Shown: one piece after another, positions 10,211-62,238 of the stretch
Position numbering within the stretch: position 1 is the stretch's first letter
Layout of the letters: every line of letters starts with the position of its first letter
NCBI GenBank assembly: GCA_930367215.1
Contig: OV884059.1
Coordinates: 231,321,803 to 231,385,802 of the forward strand
From: Pollenia angustigena
Lineage: Eukaryota > Arthropoda > Insecta > Diptera > Polleniidae
Direction of reading: 5' to 3'
Length of the DNA stretch: 64,000 bases
Program-made: the position numbers and the translations under genes
Notes under the pieces: model-generated
What the model saw: the letters and a program-made list of their open reading frames with translations, nothing else
Told to the model about the DNA's origin: nothing
Databases searched by the model: none

Positions 10211-12081
10211 TAGGAATGGGCAAAAAATATCGATATATCAAAATATATATCAATATATAAACAACCGTGTTATAACATGAGAAAACCTCTAACTTGATGA
10301 GTATATACATTAGCGTGGCCGTTAGTTGTATGGAGAACTTTTTTTTTTTGATTTCTTTTATTCTCCCCCCCCCCAAATCGGTTCAGTTTTATGTAAAAAA
10401 AAATACAAAAAAATTTCGTAGCGATAAGTTGTGTTTTAGGGGGGGCGTCGGCCCCTCAAAGTTTGCCATCAAGCCATTTATTCAAATGTAATTTGTTTGC
10501 ATATGACTATCTCTTAAAAACAACATTTTACAAGAACATGGTATATGGCAATATTTTAGCTCTTCTAGTCAACAACATTAGCCTCGAAGAAAGTTTTTTG
10601 CTAAAATTAATATTTAAGAAAATAATTAAGAAAATAACAACAAAATTCAAAACATTTTATATACGTTTTATATATATAAAAGAGGGATTTAATGTCAAGT
10701 GAACTAATTTTGAAATCGAAATCTTTCGATTTGGATGAAATTTGCACCACCGTTAGTCCCATTGAATAGTAGTTCAGACACAAATTTTCAACAAGATCGG
10801 TCAAAAAGTTTCTGAGTTTGGGAGGGTCAAAGTTTGAAATTTTGGCCATACAGGTGTTCTTTCACATCCATGTAACTTATTACCAATTGGGGTTAGCAAA
10901 ATTTGTCTCAAGCAGCTTAGATAGGTATTTAATCAATTTTTTTTAAAAAAAATTTTTTAACATATTTTTTTTATTTAAAACTTTTTTTTTTTTTTTTGCC
11001 AAGTTGTAAATTTAAAAAAAAAATTTTAAAAAATTCAAAAAAAAAACAAAAAAATTTTTTTTTTAAAGATTGATCAAATAGCTATCTAAGCTGCTTGGGA
11101 CAAATTTTGCTAACCCCAATTGGTAATAAGTTACATGGATGTGAAAGAACACCTGTATGGCCAAAATTTCAAACTTTGACCCCCCCAAACTCAGAAACTT
11201 TTTGACCGATCTTGTTGAAAATTTGTGTCTAAACTACTATTCAATAGGACTAACGTTGGTGCAAATTTCATCCAAATCGAAAGACATCGATTTCAAAATT
11301 AGTTCACTTGACATTAAATCCCTCTTTTATATATATAAAACGTATATAAAATGTTTGGAATTTTGTTGTTATTTTCTTAATTATTTTCTTAAATATTAAT
11401 TTTAGCAAAAAACTTTCTTCGAGGCTAATGTTGTTGACTAGAAGAGCTAAAATATTGCCATATATCATGTTCTTGTAAAATGTTGTTTTTAAGAGATAGT
11501 CATATGCAAACAAATTACATTTGAATAAATGGCTTGATGGCAAACTTTGAGGGGCGGACGCCCCCCCTAAAACACAACTTATCGCTACGAAATTTTTTTG
11601 TATTTTTTTTTACATAAAACTGAACCGATTTGGGGGGGGAGAATATAAGAAATCAAAAAAAAGAAAATAACGGCCACCCTAATATACATACTTAACACTA
11701 ACGTCATATTAGTGTTAATGTTAAGCATTTCATGTCAGTTGTAGATTGCATATAAAGATTAGCATTTATAAGAAGAATTAAGAAAAAAGTGGGGTTTTCA
11801 CATTGCAGATTTCTAATTAAAACAGTAAAGTCAAACGAACTTGAAAAGATTTATTTTATGCGGTTTTGGAACAATATATGTGCCTATATATATTTGGAAT
11901 AATAACAAGATTTGTGCATATATGTATGTATGTATACATATATATTAAATTTTTTAATTTGGTAATAGTTTCAGCAAAATACGTTCGATATATCGATATT
12001 TTTGAAATAATATATATCGATACTCTTAAAATATATCGATTCGATATATATCGATATATTTTTTCAATTTGCCCATCCCTA
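10211..12081. mobile_element. hAT element, TAGGAATGGGC ends, copy 1
   Basis: The ends are TAGGAATGGGCAAA and the inverted TTTGCCCATCCCTA; the flanks CTTCTTTG (10203-10210) and CTACTTTG (12082-12089) match at 7 of 8. Both ends carry ATATCGATAT-type words. A second copy in inverted orientation starts at 62440. It holds a large palindromic element at 10311-11681. Confidence 0.85.
10311..11681. mobile_element. Giant palindromic hAT-like element (about 0.65-kb arms)
   Basis: The ends are TAGCGTGGCCGTTA and the inverted TAACGGCCACCCTA with the exact 8-bp duplication ATATACAT (10303-10310, 11682-11689). Almost the whole element is one inverted repeat: the arms, from 10311 and back from 11681, differ at only scattered bases and meet around 10930-11090 in A/T runs. 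Frames in the two arms are mirror images and have no recognised domain. A diverged relative lies at 54400-54712. Confidence 0.88.
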
Positions 12082-32193: not shown

Positions 32194-33429
32194 TGTAACG
32201 TGGTTTTGTTCATCGGCTGAGGTAGTTCAGACGAGTCCAGGGGGTACTTACGGATCCACTAACCTTAAGTGAGAAGACGATATGTTTACCCTTACTGGGG
32301 TGGAAGTAAATCTTTTCTTTATTCAAGCTTTTATTAATTTAATTTTAACAATTCATGAAATACGACAAACTACTTTAGCATGGAGCCTTCGGCTTGCGGG
32401 GATTCGTGTTGATCGGCTTTCCGACACCAGAGTCTCTAATAGGCTTTCGGCAGGTCGGCGGTCGGGTACGGTTCGGGGTTATGAAACGCTCGGCGGTTGC
32501 GTATCACGGACTTCGGCAGGGTCGGCAATGATCGGTTCGTTCTGGGCTCTTCCCTCGGCTGCTGCTTCGGACTGATGCGTTCGTCGTATTAATATTATAT
32601 ATAATACGTACAAAGGGGTCTTACAGCTAATAGCATAAACCTTAGAAAACTACTTAACTTACGAATTCTTACAATAATGACAATACTAGGGGCACAGGCG
32701 ACACGAGGCCACTTGTGAGAACAGGCGACACGAGGCCACTTGTGAGAACAGGCGACACGAGGCCACTTGTGAGAACAGGCGACACGAGGCCACTTGTGAG
32801 AACAGGCGACACGAGGCCACTTGTGAGAACAGGCGACACGAGGCCACTTGTGAGAACAGGCGACACGAGGCCACTTGTGAGAACAGGCGACACGAGGCCA
32901 CTTGTGAGAACAGGCGACACGAGGCCACTTGTGAGAACAGGCGACACGAGGCCACTTGTGAGAACAGGCGACACGAGGCCACTTGTGAGAACAGGCGACA
33001 CGAGGCCACTTGTGAGAACAGGCGACACGAGGCCACTTGTGTAATTTATTCGATACTCAACCCGAAAGCTAGGTATCGTCCAAAAAATGTGACTAATTCT
33101 ACGATTGTAGTCTTAGTCTGCCCGTCAGTTTATAATAAATATAACTTCCGAGCGTGGTAGGCGGTTTTCTTGTCTTGTGAGAATCGCCCCCAATGTAACC
33201 AAACCCTTTCTAGTTATCCCAATTCACAACTGAACCAAATGAGAATTATCATGGTAACTTGTGTAGTGTGTGTGTGTGTTTGTTACAGTAGGGGTATTCA
33301 CCGTGTGTTTGGTTACAGTAGGGGTATACACCATAAAAATATGAAATATTAAAATTATGCAAATTATTATAATGTACGAGGAGATAGAAATAACTAGTTA
33401 TTGGGTCTTATTTCTATTTCCACGTTACA
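32194..33429. mobile_element. Solo LTR, Gypsy-like (1.24 kb)
   Basis: Begins TGTAACGTGGTTTTG and ends TTTCCACGTTACA, i.e. TGT…ACA with a short inverted TGTAACGTGG, and is flanked by ATAT on both sides (32190-32193, 33430-33433). A 4-bp ATAT target is typical of the insect Gypsy/17.6 group. It has a TATATAAT box near 32600, GC content well above its surroundings, and a 27-bp minisatellite. No primer-binding site, gag or pol is next to it, so it is a solo LTR left by recombination. Confidence 0.75.
32694..33041. repeat. 27-bp minisatellite, 13 units
   Basis: Thirteen head-to-tail units of ACAGGCGACACGAGGCCACT plus TGTGAGA, apparently identical, the last one three bases short. The unit is a multiple of three, so several frames stay open through it. 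Identity of all units implies recent expansion. Confidence 0.97.
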
Positions 33430-39825: not shown

Positions 39826-40768
39826 GTACGCCCGAAATAAATAGTGCATACTTTTATGCACCTAGTTTTAATACCATGTGTTCAAAATCAATACTGTTAT
39901 TTTTTTATAGTTGCTAATACTTTAGAAAACCACGTGCTAAAGTTCATGTCAGTATCAAAATTTATTTCTCTAAAAATGTCGAATTAACAAGACGTCCGTA
40001 AAGGTATTGCTAACATTTTTAACGCAAATCCAAGTTGCCGGTACAAAACTATTGCTAGGCTTGCAAATGTATCCAGAAATACGGTGTCTAGGGTAATAAA
40101 AAAATATCAACAGTCCCTGACCTTCGACAGAATGCCAGGCAGCGGTAGAAAAAGAGGTTTTTTGGATCGCAAGATGGCTGAGAAAATTAAAAGAATTTTG
40201 TTCAAATATCCCTATCTCTCTGGAAGAAAAGTGACCCAAAAGGCAAAGTGCTCCGAGACTTCGGTAAGAAAAGTTAAAAAAGAGGCTGGTCTGAGAACAT
40301 ATAAAGTGCAAAAAGTTCCAGATAGAAATTCGAAAAAGAATTTGGTGGCAAAACAGCGTGCGAAAGCTTTGCAAAGGGATTTTTTGAACAATTGCAATGC
40401 TGCATTATGGACGATGAAACTTATGTGCTGTCTGATTTTAAGCATCTTCCCGGGCAAGAATTCTATGTTGCAGATAGTAGAGGAAATGTTGCAGAAGAAT
40501 TCCGTTTTTTTTTTTGGTTTGGCAAGCCATTTGCACGTGTGGTCAAAGAGGCAGTTCCTTTGTCACTTCTGGTACAATAAATGGTGATGTTTACATAAAA
40601 GAGTGTCTGCAGAGGCGACTTCTTCCTTTTATTAAAAGACATGATATACCATCATATTTCTGGCCCGATCTCGTTACTTGCCACTACAGTAAAGCAACGG
40701 TTGAGTGGTATCGAACCATTGGTATCAACTAGGTGCATAAAAGTATGCACTATTTATTTTGCGCGCAC
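39826..40768 (+). mobile_element. Tc1/mariner-like element, deleted
   Basis: Inverted ends of about 45 bp: GTACGCCCGAAATAAATAGT then GCATACTTTTATGCACCTAG on the left, and the inverted CTAGGTGCATAAAAGTATGC…GCGCGCAC on the right. TA precedes the left end; the right TA has changed. It carries a broken transposase (39976-40732). Inserted in repeat B. Confidence 0.85.
39976..40732 (+). pseudogene. Tc1/mariner transposase, frameshifted and C-terminally deleted
   Basis: The plus strand encodes an N-terminal helix-turn-helix region (RKGIANIFN…YKTIARLANVSRNTVSRVIK), a second one after GSGRKRG (the GRPR-like linker), then, after a frameshift, MDDETYVLSDFKHLPGQEFY with the first catalytic Asp region, and after another shift FWPDLVTCHYSKATVEWY with the second. 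This DLAxxHYxxxTLxWY block is a Tc1/mariner hallmark. The third acidic residue and the rest of the C-terminus are missing because the right inverted end follows directly. A stop codon lies three codons after the probable ATG at 39976. Inactive. Confidence 0.85.
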
Positions 40769-43221: not shown

Positions 43222-43789
43222 CAATTTAAAAGCGTTAAAATTATTTCAATATTTGATTTACCTGAAAGGAAAAAGAAAGAAAAAAAGTATTTTAATTAAT
43301 GTGTTATAAAATCTTGTAATTAAATTCTTCATTGAAATTAATAACAAAAAATAGCTAAAGCCAATAGAATATTGCAAAAGACACAGGTGGAAAAGGGTAT
43401 ATACAGTAGAGTGGCCATAGTGGAAATTTTTTTGAAAAGTTAAATTTTTCGCACTGAAAAATATGAGGTTGGGGATTAAAATAATTATGCATATTTTATT
43501 TTTTTTTTTTTTTTTAATTCCGAGTACCTCCGGGTTGAGCCCAAACTTTTATAACATTACCCATTTGTCACTATTTTTGTTCCTGTTTGTATTTAAATAA
43601 CAAAAAAAATCTGACTTTATGTTCCCAACTGAATTTCTTCGATACCTTTAATTATTACCTTTCCAACGATCCGCAATAGTCTGCTGATAAACTACGGATA
43701 ATCTTGCCCGGAATACCCAAAAACCAAAGTCCAAAAAAATAGGTGAATTTTTAAAATTTGTTTTATTGTTGATAACTTACTAATGAAGC

Positions 43790-44117
43790 CTTTTTGTTGG
43801 CTTATCCTCTTCGTCGTCGTCGAAATCTGTAATTAGTTTTTAGTAATTGCTCTTTCTGCCGGATCATTTACAACGGTTAAGTGGGTATGAAAAACCACAA
43901 GCTCCAATTTTTAGGCAAATTTTGTGCTAGATCGTTTTCGTGAATTGGTAGTAAAAACCTAATGGAATTTTTGGTTTTATGTTTTTGTAAACATTTTACT
44001 AAAAGATCCAAAGCAGGTAGACCATTTTGTCTTATGTCGAAAAATACTTGCCAGTTTTTACATGTAAAAAAATAAGTTTGGTTGTTACCATTGAAGGAAA
44101 TTAATAAAAACGCTTAA
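43790..44117 (-). pseudogene. Inverted transposase tail plus unknown open stretch
   Basis: On the minus strand, 43935-43800 repeats the end of the transposase gene (HLTVVNDPAERAI then DDDEED), so the left arm includes an inverted piece of coding sequence. Upstream of it, 44117-43877 is open for about 79 codons without an ATG and reads, among others, CKNWQVFFDIRQNGLPALDL and HENDLAQNLPKNWSLWFFIP before a stop. I do not recognise it; it could be part of a longer relative's transposase or a captured piece. Confidence 0.4.
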
Positions 44118-44134
44118 CCTTGAAGTAATTTTTT

Positions 44135-45391
44135 ATGATCGGTTGTTGCATCAGATTATGTCAATGCATTGGTCGAAGGGTTATGGAAATTTCCAACCAT
44201 TCTGATAAAAAAAACACATGCAATAACTGTGGTGAAAATATTGCTGAAGGCATTGAAAAATTCCTACGCAAATGGAAGATTGATAATTTAGTGCAAATTG
44301 TGGCTTTTGACACAACATCTACAAACACTGGTATTGAAAAAGGCTCAGCATATTTGCTTGAAAGTAAATTGGGTCGCGATTTACTTTTTCTACCGTGTCG
44401 CCATCATATCAGCGAATTGCTTATTAAAGCTGTGTTTGATTTAAATTTCGGAAAAACATCAGCACCAGAAGTCACTCTCTTTAATCGTTTTTCAAAAGAC
44501 TGGAAAAATATGAATATCAATACTTTCAAGAGTGGAGTATTGGATGAAGCAGCGAAAAAAACTTAACAGCAGCCGAAATAGAGACGCACAAGAACTTTCG
44601 CTAATTTTTCTTGGTAAGGAAGTACCAAATTTTACGCAGTTGCGTTTGCCTGGCGCAACAATTCATGCAAGGTTTATGTCCAAAGCTATATACTGCTATA
44701 AGATTTTTTTGCTTCGCGAACAATTCAAGATCACATCCTCCGAGCTGAAAGGCATTCGAAACATTTGCATTTTCTTGACGCGAATTTATGTTTCGTATTG
44801 GTTCGGATGCGTTAACGCTGTATCTGCACCGCGTCAAGATTTACAATTTATTAAAGACGTTATTTCATATTTCGATCTAAATGTTTCAAATGCCTTATTG
44901 TCAAAATTCAAAAACCATTTATGGTATTTATCGGAAGAGGCGGTGGCTCTTGGATTTTTCGATGAAACTATATCTATTGAAGTGAAGCGGAAAATGGTTG
45001 AAGCTCTTGGCAATCATGTTGACGAAAATGACAAAGTTATTCCAAAAAGATTAAACTTAACGCTGGAACAAGTGAAATCGTTTGAAAATAAGGATTTAAG
45101 TTCTTTCGTTACTCCTCGCACCAAGCGTTTTTTTTTCATCGTTTAGAAATCGATGTGACATTTTTTGAATTGGATCCATCGATTTGGAAGGACCAAGAAG
45201 AATACTGCACCGCAAAACGAATATGCCAACACTTAACCGTTGTAAATGACCCGGCAGAAAGAGCAATAAAACTAATAACAGATTTCAATCGGGCATTGAC
45301 ATACGACGAAGAGGATAAGCAGTATTTGCTTCAAGTTGTGGAGCACTACAGAAAAAACTTTTCATCCCACAATAAATCTTCATTAGTATAA
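44135..45391 (+). pseudogene. hAT-like transposase, two or three frameshifts
   Basis: Three overlapping frames (44135-44566, 44532-45146, 45155-45391) together cover one protein. First block: IVAFDTTSTNTG with an Asp suited to the first catalytic position, then LLESKLGRDLLFLPCRHHIS with a C-x-x-H as in hAT transposases. Middle: SSELKGIRNICIFLTRIYVS and APRQDLQFIKDVISYF. End: VNDPAERAIKLITDFN, where PAER sits in the position of the hAT PSER motif and would give the last acidic residue. Breaks fall in an A-run at about 44555 and a T-run at about 45130. The class is common in arthropod genomes; its membership of hAT agrees with the 8-bp duplication. Confidence 0.75.
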
Positions 45392-45805
45392 TATTATCAG
45401 CAATAAAAAAAAATTAAAAAATAAATAAAAAAAAAAATTAAAAAATAAATTTTTTTTTTTTGGACCTTGGTTTTTGGGTATTCCGGGCAAGATTATCTGT
45501 AGTTTATCAGCAGACTATTGCGGCTCGTTGGAAAGGTAATAATTAAAGGTATCGAAGAAATTCAGTTGGGAACATAAAGTCAGATTTTTTTTGTTATTTA
45601 AATACAAACAGGAACAAAAATAGTGACAAATGGGTAATGTAATAAAAGTTTGGGCTCAACCCGGAGGTCCTCGGAATTAAAAAAAAAAAAAAAAAAAATA
45701 TGCATAATTATTGTTATCTCCAACCTCATATTTTTCAGTGCGAAAACTTTTGGATTTAACATTTTTAATTTTTTCTATATAACGCTATGGCCAGTCTAAT
45801 ATACA

Positions 45806-58235: not shown

Positions 58236-58239
58236 ATAT

Positions 58240-58958
58240 GGGTAATTCCATGTCAAATCGACCAAGAGTGGGACCCGACCCCTTTCGATTTGAATGAAAT
58301 TTGGTGAGAAGGTTCCTTTTATCCTATAAGGAACATATATGAACGAAAAAAATTTTTAAAATTTTTTTTTCAAAAGTTACGTCATATTCAAAATGGCATA
58401 ATTTCGCCGAATTAGCCGAATATGTTGAGTTTATTTTTTCTATATCTCAAAAACTACTGCACATACGAAGATGATTTGTATGTCATTTTAAAGAGAATAC
58501 TTGGGGCTATAAGCAATATATTGAAGAAAAAATTTTTTTTGGAAAAAATGTAATATCTGCAAAATATTAAATTTTTAAAATGGACTAAGTCAAAAACCTA
58601 ATTTTTTTTTTGCCTAATTTTTTTTTATATAATACCTCAAACTGTTCTTTAAAAATCCTAAAACTTTGAAGGAGGTGTTTTTTTTTTTTTTTTAGATATG
58701 AATTTTTTTCTTTCGCAACCTTTAAAAAAATTACCTAAAAATAAAATTTTAAAATTTTAATTTTGAGCAATAAGTATTTATAACATCTGATTTGTTTGAA
58801 AAAGTAATATTATTGGTAAGATTGTTTTTGTTTATTTGTTGCATCTTTTGTTGGGGCTCAATGTGGGCATTTTTTTAAGAAAAGTACACCTTTTGTCACG
58901 TTACGTCTTTGAAAGTCGTTTTTTCTTCGTCTCTTTTCCTACCGATAATGCCGGGCTG
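58240..58958 (+). repeat. Left inverted arm of the intact transposon
   Basis: Pairs with 61519-62234. It contains the same sequence that, in the right arm, encodes the possible C-terminal tail of the transposase, here in inverse orientation, and ends at CCGGGCTG. Confidence 0.93.
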
Positions 58959-59133
58959 GTTTCTACAGTTAATACAGTAAAAAAATCGCTGTGCTTAATG
59001 CACTTTCAGTCGACACTGATTTAATTGTCAACCATATGTAAGTCTGAAATCAATTATTGCAATTATTCGTGTTTGGAATAGCAAAAAGTGTGATTTTTTT
59101 TATTTAAAATAAATAATAGTCAAAACGGTAATC

Positions 59134-61428
59134 ATGGAAAGTAATAAGTGTTCAATTGGCATAGTTAATAATGAGGTATGCTCTGAGGGAAAATTCATTA
59201 ATTGTGTAGATCTTCCTGATAAAGAACGCATTACTCTTAATGCTAGAAGTGGTATTGTGGTCAGTTTTGTTTGCGATAAGCATGATAGAGAATTTTGTGA
59301 AAAATACACCTTAAACCAAAAAATGTGTGCTGATCCGTATAACATTCATGTAACTCGAGTACAAAAATCATTGAAAGTCGTTACTTTTGAGATTTATACT
59401 CATGTTAAGGTAATTTTTCCTTTAATTGCACCCGGGAAAAAACTGTGTATTTCGTGTTGGAAAAAAATAAGTATTGAAGTGGAAAAATATCAACAAGTGA
59501 TGCCCCCATCTGAACAAGATGATGTGACATCTGAAATTTGTAGTTCAACAAGTGAAACTGTTTGTTCAAAAACAATTAATCTTGATCGTGTCAATGCTGT
59601 TGCAAAAATACTCGGGTTGTCTCCTCTTAAAAAAAAATACTTAAATCGATCAAAAACTTATGTCCAGCAAAAATATTATGAAATTATATCTAAACTACAA
59701 TCATGCTGTAAGCATGTTACGGATAGTTCTTTTAACTCAATTGACGATGACAATTTAATTGTTGATGACAACCCAGAATTAACTGGAAAAGAAATGATAG
59801 TACAGTTGAAGAACAAATTTGATAATACTAGCAAATTGAGTGAAAAATTACAAATCCTGTCAGTCTTACCATCAAGTTGGTCAACCCAAAAAATTGTTGA
59901 TATTTTCGGAGCAACTTCGTACATGGCTAAAAAAATTAAAGAAAACGTAAAAAAAGATGGCATTTTATTCATTCCTGAAAAACATAAAGGTCATCCGTTG
60001 TTAAAAACCACGGAAGAAAAAATTCAAGAGTTCTTTAGAAAACAAGACGTCAGCAGAGAACTACCCGGTAAAAAAGAATATAAATCTGCTTATGAAAACG
60101 GTCTGCGAGTGCAAAAACAAAAACGGTTAATCTTGGGTAACCTAAGTGAAATTTTTCACATGTTTAAAGAAAAATATCCATTTGAAAAAGTTGGTTTTTC
60201 TAAATTTGCAAGTTTAAGACCACCCGAATGTGTTCTAGCTGGTGCATCTGGTACGCACGTAGTATGTGTTTGCCGGATTCATGAAAATTTTAAAATGCTA
60301 TTTCAAGGTGCTAGACTTGAAAAACTAAAAATGAAGGATGGATCTCAACCATTTTCTTCATATAAAGATTGTATGAAAATGGTTATTTGTAAAACACCTA
60401 CGGATGACTGTTATCTTGGTGTATGCAATGCTTGTCCCGGCTCGTCCAAATTAAAAAATATTCTCGAAAATCTTTTTACGGAAAACTGTTTAGATGACAT
60501 TACATATAATCAGTGGATTCAAGTAGACCGCTGCTCTTTGGAGACAGTTATAAAATCAACTGAAGATTTCGTTGATTTTGTTGTAGAATATATTCCAAAA
60601 TTACTTTGGCATGACTTTGTAGCTAAACAACAAGCCGAATATTTTAAAACTACGAAAAATAATCTTGAGATAGGGCAAGTTCTTGTTGTTGCTGATTTCT
60701 CTGAAAATTATTCGTTTTTACTTCAAAATAGTGTTCAAGGAGTGTATTGGAATAACAGACAAGCGACAATTCATCCATTCGCTTGCTATTATAGATCCAT
60801 TGCTGAGAATGGAAGTGATATCGTACCTCTTAGCTTGGTAATAATATCAGATAACTTAACTCATAATACTACTGCAGTTTACAGCTTCCAAGAGACATTA
60901 ACGACGTTCCTTAAACATAAGATTCCAAATATTTCAAAAATAATTTATTTTTCTGATGGTGCTGCATCCCAATATAAAAATCGTTACAATTTAGTAAATT
61001 TGATACACCACGAAGAGGATTTTCAAATTCGAGCAGAATGGCATTTTTTTGCAACTTCTCATGGAAAAGGGCCAAGTGATGGTTTGGGTGGAACAGTTAA
61101 GCGATTAGCTAGCCGAGCCAATCTACAATTGACACCTGATCAACAAATTCAGACACCCGAGCAACTGTGTCGATGGGCGAAAGATAATATTCAAGGAATC
61201 AATTTTAATTTCGTCTCAGATCAACACATTCAACGTACTGGAAAAAAACTGAAAAATAGGTTTAAAAATGCTTCACCAGTTCAAGGAGTACGTTCCTATC
61301 ATGCCGCCATTCCTATTTCGAATAAATTTATTAAAATAAAAACTTTATCTTCATCTAGCGAAGGAGAGGATGGTAAATTGAACAATATCGACAAGATTCT
61401 GAGCGAACCAGGCTTTAAAACCAGGTAA
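59134..61428 (+). CDS. Transposase, 764 codons, DDD-like, apparently intact
   Basis: Would cut and rejoin the element's own ends in the nucleus. ATG at 59134 is the first in frame and follows the left arm. Residues 47-108 have spaced Cys/His (C47-x2-H50, C55, C65, C105-x2-C108), a possible zinc-binding module. Residues 150-190 are a basic helical stretch. WSTQKIVDIFGATSYMAKKI (about 249-268) looks like a DNA-binding helix-turn-helix. C378-x-C380-x2-H383 and CNAC (431-434) are a further Cys/His group. Catalytic candidates are D521 (VVADFSENYSF), D608 (IYFSDGAASQYKN) and D649 (HGKGPSDGLGGTVKR), with AEWHFFATSHGKG between. These blocks occur in many arthropod and cnidarian transposon proteins; I assign Sola tentatively. 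An 82-bp intron may extend it to 786 residues. Confidence 0.88.
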   Translation: MESNKCSIGIVNNEVCSEGKFINCVDLPDKERITLNARSGIVVSFVCDKHDREFCEKYTLNQKMCADPYNIHVTRVQKSLKVVTFEIYTHVKVIFPLIAPGKKLCISCWKKISIEVEKYQQVMPPSEQDDVTSEICSSTSETVCSKTINLDRVNAVAKILGLSPLKKKYLNRSKTYVQQKYYEIISKLQSCCKHVTDSSFNSIDDDNLIVDDNPELTGKEMIVQLKNKFDNTSKLSEKLQILSVLPSSWSTQKIVDIFGATSYMAKKIKENVKKDGILFIPEKHKGHPLLKTTEEKIQEFFRKQDVSRELPGKKEYKSAYENGLRVQKQKRLILGNLSEIFHMFKEKYPFEKVGFSKFASLRPPECVLAGASGTHVVCVCRIHENFKMLFQGARLEKLKMKDGSQPFSSYKDCMKMVICKTPTDDCYLGVCNACPGSSKLKNILENLFTENCLDDITYNQWIQVDRCSLETVIKSTEDFVDFVVEYIPKLLWHDFVAKQQAEYFKTTKNNLEIGQVLVVADFSENYSFLLQNSVQGVYWNNRQATIHPFACYYRSIAENGSDIVPLSLVIISDNLTHNTTAVYSFQETLTTFLKHKIPNISKIIYFSDGAASQYKNRYNLVNLIHHEEDFQIRAEWHFFATSHGKGPSDGLGGTVKRLASRANLQLTPDQQIQTPEQLCRWAKDNIQGINFNFVSDQHIQRTGKKLKNRFKNASPVQGVRSYHAAIPISNKFIKIKTLSSSSEGEDGKLNNIDKILSEPGFKTR

Positions 61429-61576
61429 AAAATAACGTTTTAATTCTTAATATTGTATTAACATTGAATAAGGCTTCAACATTCATAGCATTTTCATTTA
61501 TTTTAGGTTAAGAAAAAGCAGCCCGGCATTAACGGTAGGAAAAGAGACGAAGAAAAAACGACTTTCAAAGACGTAA
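61425..61576 (+). other. Possible intron and C-terminal exon of the transposase
   Basis: The stop codon of the long frame lies in a donor-like CCAG|GTAAAA. An acceptor TTTCATTTATTTTAG ends at 61506. Splicing out 61425-61506 (82 bp) joins in frame to LRKSSPALTVGKETKKKRLS and a stop at 61574-61576. The added tail has a KETKKKR cluster like a nuclear-localisation signal and runs into the right arm. An AATAAA follows at 61641. Short GT-AG introns of this size are normal in flies. Confidence 0.5.
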
Positions 61577-62234
61577 CGTGACAAAAGGTGTACTTTTCTT
61601 AAAAAAATGCCCACATTGAGCCCCAACAAAAGATGCAACAAATAAACAAAAACAATCTTACCAATAATATTACTTTTTCAAACAAATCAGATTTTATAAA
61701 TACTTATTGCTCAAAATTAAAATTTTAAAATTTTATTTTTAGGTAATTTTTTTAAAGGTTGCGAAAGAAAAAAATTCATATCTAAAAAAAAAAAAAACAC
61801 CTCCTTCAAAGTTTTAGGATTTTTAAAGAACAGTTTGAGGTATTATATAAAAAAAAATTAGGCAAAAAAAAATTAGGTTTTTGACTTAGTCCATTTTAAA
61901 AATTTAATATTTTGCAGATATTACATTTTTTCCAAAAAAAATTTTTTCTTCAATATATTGCTTATAGCCCCAAGTATTCTCTTTAAAATGACATACAAAT
62001 CATCTTCGTATGTGCAGTAGTTTTTGAGATATAGAAAAAATAAACTCAACATATTCGGCTAATTCGGCGAAATTATGCCATTTTGAATATGACGTAACTT
62101 TTGAAAAAAAAAATTTTAAAATTTTTTTCGTTCATATATGTTCCTTATAGGATAAAAGGAACCTTCTCACCAAATTTCATTCAAATCGAAAGGGGTCGGG
62201 TCCCACTCTTGGTCGATTTGACATGGAATTACCC
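61519..62234 (-). repeat. Right inverted arm of the intact transposon
   Basis: Inverted copy of 58240-58958; carries the possible last transposase exon and polyadenylation signal. Confidence 0.93.
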
Positions 62235-62238
62235 ATAT

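Follow-up and report, generated by a model that had tools for sequence, protein, structure and literature searches.

The DNA examined here, from Pollenia angustigena, raises the question of whether an element bounded by long inverted repeats is a complete transposon, to which group it would belong and whether it moved recently. The window, that is, the whole stretch of 64,000 nucleotides analysed, lies on contig C4 of a genome of 1.37 Gb in 31 contigs, and a preliminary description made from the sequence had proposed an autonomous, recently arrived and possibly active element of the Sola group or a close ally of it. The borders given there, 58240..62234, were confirmed exactly, both termini of the 3,995-bp element being exact, and its main parts are as follows.

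58236..58239, no strand: left 4-bp target-site duplication, ATAT (4-bp duplications in 15/15 exact-ended copies)
58240..58962, + strand: left terminal inverted repeat, 723 bp, beginning GGGTAATTCCATGTCAAATCGACC
59134..61428, + strand: open frame of 764 codons, the transposase as an unspliced frame, read from the sequence
61515..62234, - strand: right terminal inverted repeat, 720 bp
62235..62238, no strand: right 4-bp target-site duplication, ATAT (4-bp duplications in 15/15 exact-ended copies)

Aligned over 723 columns, the arms differ by 5 substitutions and 3 gap columns (98.9% alike); they enclose an interior of 2,552 bp and give the element the ends 5'-GGG...CCC-3'. The near-identical inverted arms of about 720 bp previously described are thus present, and the ATAT on either side was confirmed by reading the sequence. 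In contrast, the remark that such long arms are unusual for Sola did not hold, as the published span is 11–1,124 bp in the available portion of the source (PMC10741241) and more distantly related elements of this genome carry arms of roughly 490–560 bp. Scanning the window for Rfam families and tRNAs returned no matches.

The preliminary description had also proposed a genome-wide count of full-length copies. Our search of the insect's own genome scored the best 40 of 3,061 candidates, so that copy numbers are lower bounds, and detected at least 13 near-identical full-length copies at 99–100%, at least one truncated copy retaining its two ends (L022) and at least six older copies at 84–87% (13–16% different), in addition to other fragments and 18 short pieces. 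The 18 short copies were considered as miniature derivatives and rejected, as they are one fragment inside a different repeat. At least 18 copies of that repeat (L029–L046, L049–L053) carry an arm piece of about 536–537 bp at 91%. Five copies were followed to either end; in these the repeat is ∼1.75 kb long and 99.8–99.9% alike, has the ends CACAGTGGCGCC...GGCGCTACTGTG and is flanked by CGNCG (CGCCG, CGTCG, CGACG). It resembles a non-autonomous Transib into which a fossil arm was incorporated.

The window copy alone could not distinguish a target duplication from part of the arm because ATAT is palindromic, and a 4-bp match has a chance probability of about 0.007–0.008 in the window. Twenty loci were examined at their ends, comprising all 13 full-length copies, L022 and the six older copies. 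Exact ends on both sides were observed in 15 of the 20 (the 13, L022 and one older copy), and all 15 are flanked by perfect 4-bp duplications, ATAT in seven, AAAT in two, ACAT, AACT, TTAT, ATAA and CTAT in one each and CTTT in the older copy. Two of these, L010 and L017, lie in AT repeats, where longer duplication matches are possible. If ATAT belonged to the arms, the true duplication would be 0, 2 or 8 bp, a reading to which the palindrome lends itself and for which an 8-bp comparison at the window site shows one mismatch only. Against this, non-palindromic duplications occur elsewhere (AAAT, ACAT, AACT, ATAA, TTAT, CTAT, CTTT) and exact empty sites contain a single ACAT, leaving a non-4-bp duplication next to no probability; on the evidence of the non-palindromic duplications we rejected it. 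Because differing 4-bp duplications flank other copies, ATAT is the target duplication and not a piece of the arm.

Empty sites, which the preliminary description had suggested looking for, were found for the L013 insertion. Its two flanks, fused across a single ACAT, were matched by all of the best 40 of 2,355 candidates: 100% over 236 bp in at least 28, 100% over 234–235 bp in two and 99% over 236 bp in ten (for example, G000:C1:281205816-281206051). The identity of the flanks to the empty copies fits a young insertion, and these sites, with the duplications at all 15 exact-ended copies, establish 4-bp target duplication. The repeat hit by L013 is high-copy, with at least 28 identical 236-bp places, and by eye resembles a retrotransposon coding region.

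Copy-to-copy divergence is correspondingly low. Pairwise differences among the 13 full-length copies range from 0.08 to 0.48% (mean 0.26%), and each copy departs from the column majority by 1–10 substitutions, 69 in total, with a mean of 5.3 in ∼3,995 bases (0.13%). The window copy and L010, which differ by 0.33% or ∼13 sites, lie 8 and 5 differences from the majority, respectively; in general, two copies differ by about as many sites as their separate departures from the majority add up to, as expected for one burst from one source. The insect mutation rate is near 3e-9 per site per generation, at which a divergence of 0.13% would, as a rough estimate, represent about 0.4 million generations. 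Arm identity was rejected as a clock for the insertion: in the majority consensus of the 13 copies, a single substitution and a single gap separate the two arms across 715 columns, so that the arms were already alike before the burst. Since the arms travel with the element, the insertion is dated from copy-to-copy divergence. The near-identical copies and the exact empty sites bear out a recent arrival.

The interior frame extends for 771 codons from stop to stop and 764 from its ATG, far beyond chance, since resampling the interior 1,000 times under a first-order Markov model produced no open frame longer than 222 codons. The single uninterrupted frame reported earlier is therefore real, and the accompanying statement that every other transposase in the window is broken agrees with short or split frames at 39988–40587 and 44129–45146, as far as these were studied. 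The former is a 199-codon frame with weak helix-turn-helix matches, one of them to a Tc3-type transposase domain below the cut-off, and is perhaps a broken mariner-like gene. The region 43442–45750 is an inverted-repeat element with arms of ∼323 bp at 93.8% and two short overlapping frames instead of one gene, for which no Pfam match was detected at E ≤ 0.01. The window also contains a near-palindrome of ∼1.4 kb, 92.6% self-complementary, at 10300–11692, and a tandem array at 32694–33041, identical at shifts of multiples of 54 bases, across which frames repeat every 9 residues, equal to 27 bases.

Conservation of the frame product was counted over alignment rows with a letter at the position concerned and, with a structure model, suggests the following organization.

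59134..59508, + strand: cysteine-rich N-terminal region, residues 1–125, perhaps zinc-binding; residues 63–125 weakly ZAD-like
59779..59967, + strand: helix-turn-helix-like region, residues 216–278, perhaps end-binding
60694..60696, + strand: codon of D521, predicted first catalytic aspartate (DFSEN), right after the first core strand of the model; D in 237/241 rows
60955..60957, + strand: codon of D608, predicted second catalytic aspartate (DG..QYKN); D in 226/230 rows
61078..61080, + strand: codon of D649, predicted third catalytic residue (HGK..DG), where the next helix of the model begins; D in 225/230 rows, E in 3

The model places D521, D608 and D649 in an integrase-like core, which probably adopts an RNase-H-like fold; the triad's conservation and the model bear out the proposal of a DDD enzyme. 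Domain matches for the N-terminal regions were within background, and Foldseek comparison of the model with the PDB and with viral models returned nothing at E ≤ 0.001 in either.

Arms, exact ends and open frame bear out an autonomous structure; whether the family can still move is a separate matter. Relative to the six older copies, dN is 0.066–0.074 and dS 0.229–0.242, and the dN/dS of 0.28–0.31 indicates selection on the protein during the divergence of these two lineages, although the six values are not independent tests because the older copies are interrelated. Within the 13 young copies, 9 silent and 32 replacement changes are observed, near the neutral expectation and as for decay after insertion. 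The frame is open over its full length in 6 of the 13 (L009, which is the window copy, L010, L011, L013, L014 and L017) and broken in seven, each at different places; thus the situation which the preliminary description had named as contrary to its proposal, one inactivating change shared by all copies, does not exist. It is nevertheless conceivable, if on balance unlikely, that the family is already immobile and that frames are open merely because the burst was recent, as the seven broken copies and the neutral-looking changes would suggest. Against this stand the six open frames, the small departure of each copy from the majority in ∼4 kb and the L013 insertion into a repeat whose empty copies match its flanks over 236 bp, although none of these observations is evidence of movement today. 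The window copy carries three private replacement changes relative to the majority, so that its open frame is no proof of a working enzyme. We infer that the family may be active at present.

The end of the frame permits a second reading, in which the last codons, ...AAA ACC AGG TAA, double as a good splice donor, CAG|GTAAAA, with TTTTAG|G downstream.

61425..61506, + strand: predicted 82-bp intron, CAG|GTAAAA ... TTTTAG|G, GT/AG kept in 19/19 aligned copies
61507..61576, + strand: predicted second exon and stop, mostly within the right arm, adding a basic tail

Joining across the predicted intron would give a product of 786 residues whose coding sequence stops within the right arm, at 61576. 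The gene may contain one last intron, followed by an exon that extends into that arm. All six older copies have GTGAAA (AGGTGA) in place of GTAAAA at the donor, a change that also preserves a stop codon, and by eye would terminate two residues earlier under the spliced reading. The three closest full-length relatives among the matches listed (P0001–P0003) all stop at the same T-R or S-R. As a plain stop codon is equally conserved by the donor changes, the intron evidence is suggestive at most. We consider it improbable that the family represents a distinct, so far unmodelled lineage in which full-length transposase is made only after splicing and the last exon lies inside one arm. If true, one arm would be both recognition DNA and coding sequence, tying arm evolution to protein evolution.

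Database searches place the unspliced product among widespread proteins. Relatives numbered 1,199, of which 120 are listed, and occur in insects, shrimp, a sea spider, Hydra and a sponge; among the 120 listed, most rows being unnamed, neither Sola nor a slime mould is named. The Pfam profile search proposed in the preliminary description yielded no family at its cut-off and NCBIfam none above its own, and the relatives that were scanned gave none of note; scans of viral-contig and genome-contig collections gave nothing useful. Some relatives are annotated as host genes, ARL14 effector or RtcB-like, names unbacked by Pfam in 4/4 looked at (P0162, P0079, P0047, P0076). With no Pfam family above cut-off for the transposase, a host gene family is not indicated and that reading was rejected. 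Within the same genome, at least 36 loci encode distant relatives at 37–43% protein identity (best 59 of 2,029 candidates), 11 of which have no stop inside the match and open frames of 582–683 codons. Judged from these sequences, this kind of transposase is diverse in P. angustigena. Four distant loci were read, representing two families and not three, since L059, L060 and L061 form one family. Three of the four, read most naturally, have inverted arms of roughly 490–560 bp and 4-bp duplications (CATA, TATA and AATA), with the ends GGGTAAAAACATATGAAATC in L058 and GAGCAATTCCATATGAAA in L059 and L061, the latter two permitting alternative duplication readings; L060 showed no clear ends.

Sola elements have DDD transposases, 4-bp duplications and the arm span cited above, and are mostly 2–9 kb, in the accessible part of that source (PMC10741241). 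The present element makes 4-bp target-site duplications, encodes a transposase with a predicted DDD triad and falls within the range in both arm length and size. In slime moulds, Sola2 uses AWWT target sites such as ATAT and AAAT, in the portion of the source available (PMC3627910). The DDD enzyme and the A/T-rich 4-bp duplications thus fit Sola, probably Sola2, and with good confidence we regard the element as a complete and autonomous DNA transposon that moved recently and most likely belongs to Sola2. A DDD transposon outside Sola2, from another Sola group or a superfamily without its own name, would share only the 4-bp duplication and the DDD enzyme. The absence of a Pfam or NCBIfam family and of any listed match named Sola favours such an origin, as do target sites that fit AWWT strictly in 9 of the 14 young insertions, the others being ACAT, AACT, TTAT, ATAA and CTAT, with CTTT in the older copy. 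However, relatives are so many and widespread that repeat curators are unlikely to have missed the family. In addition, Cotesia congregata is reported rich in Sola2, in an extract of the source (PMC7822920), and among the relatives of the transposase are proteins from C. glomerata and C. typhae, no source equating the two. We therefore give an origin outside Sola2 a small probability and retain Sola2 as the probable name. Families with TTAA target duplications, piggyBac and Kolobok in the section of the source seen (PMC9587614), were rejected, as 0/15 duplications are TTAA. Ginger, whose protein is described as highly similar to Gypsy integrase in part of PMC10741241, was also considered; no Pfam integrase model matched the transposase at E ≤ 1, and none was detected at E ≤ 0.05 in 26 family members.

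We infer a cut-and-paste rather than a replicative route. The element's gene would produce the DDD transposase, whose N-terminal half, containing the cysteine-rich and helix-turn-helix-like regions, may bind sites in both arms and pair them. The RNase-H-like core, through D521, D608, D649 and metal ions, would then cut at the ends and attach these to an A/T-rich target at positions staggered by 4 bp, and filling of the stagger by host repair would produce the duplications.

The transposon is ordinary in kind, a clean example of a known one, and useful in quality, being well preserved and recently expanded. A little-studied type of transposase is thereby represented by a complete set of many copies, for which exact ends and empty sites are at hand and several frames are open. 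This suffices to assay excision in cultured cells and to build a profile of the protein group, which has over a thousand database relatives, is uncovered by the Pfam version used and sometimes carries host-gene names.

Compared with known systems, retroviral integrases and the Mos1 mariner transposase differ in having no sequence match to the transposase in PDB searches, and the mariner target duplication is TA. Cc8L18.2-like proteins of the beetle Psylliodes and the thrips Megalurothrips (P0005, P0007, P0055) share 38–73% identity over 46–85% of the query, under a name that does not say transposase and which is presumably in the style of a bracovirus gene; the comparison was made on the proteins, and a literature search for Cc8L18.2 found no papers. 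BV26 elements of C. congregata bracovirus segments, compared by description in the part of the source available, are likewise reported from an insect genome as Sola2-derived, but are miniature and non-autonomous (PMC7822920). Slime-mould Sola2 differs in arms of just 12–13 or 21 bp, as given in the available part of PMC3627910, versus 723/720 bp here. Likened by features rather than by reference sequences, the element departs from Sola2 in its partial adherence to AWWT and resembles it in a predicted DDD transposase, in A/T-rich 4-bp duplications including ATAT and AAAT, and in a size and arms that lie within range.
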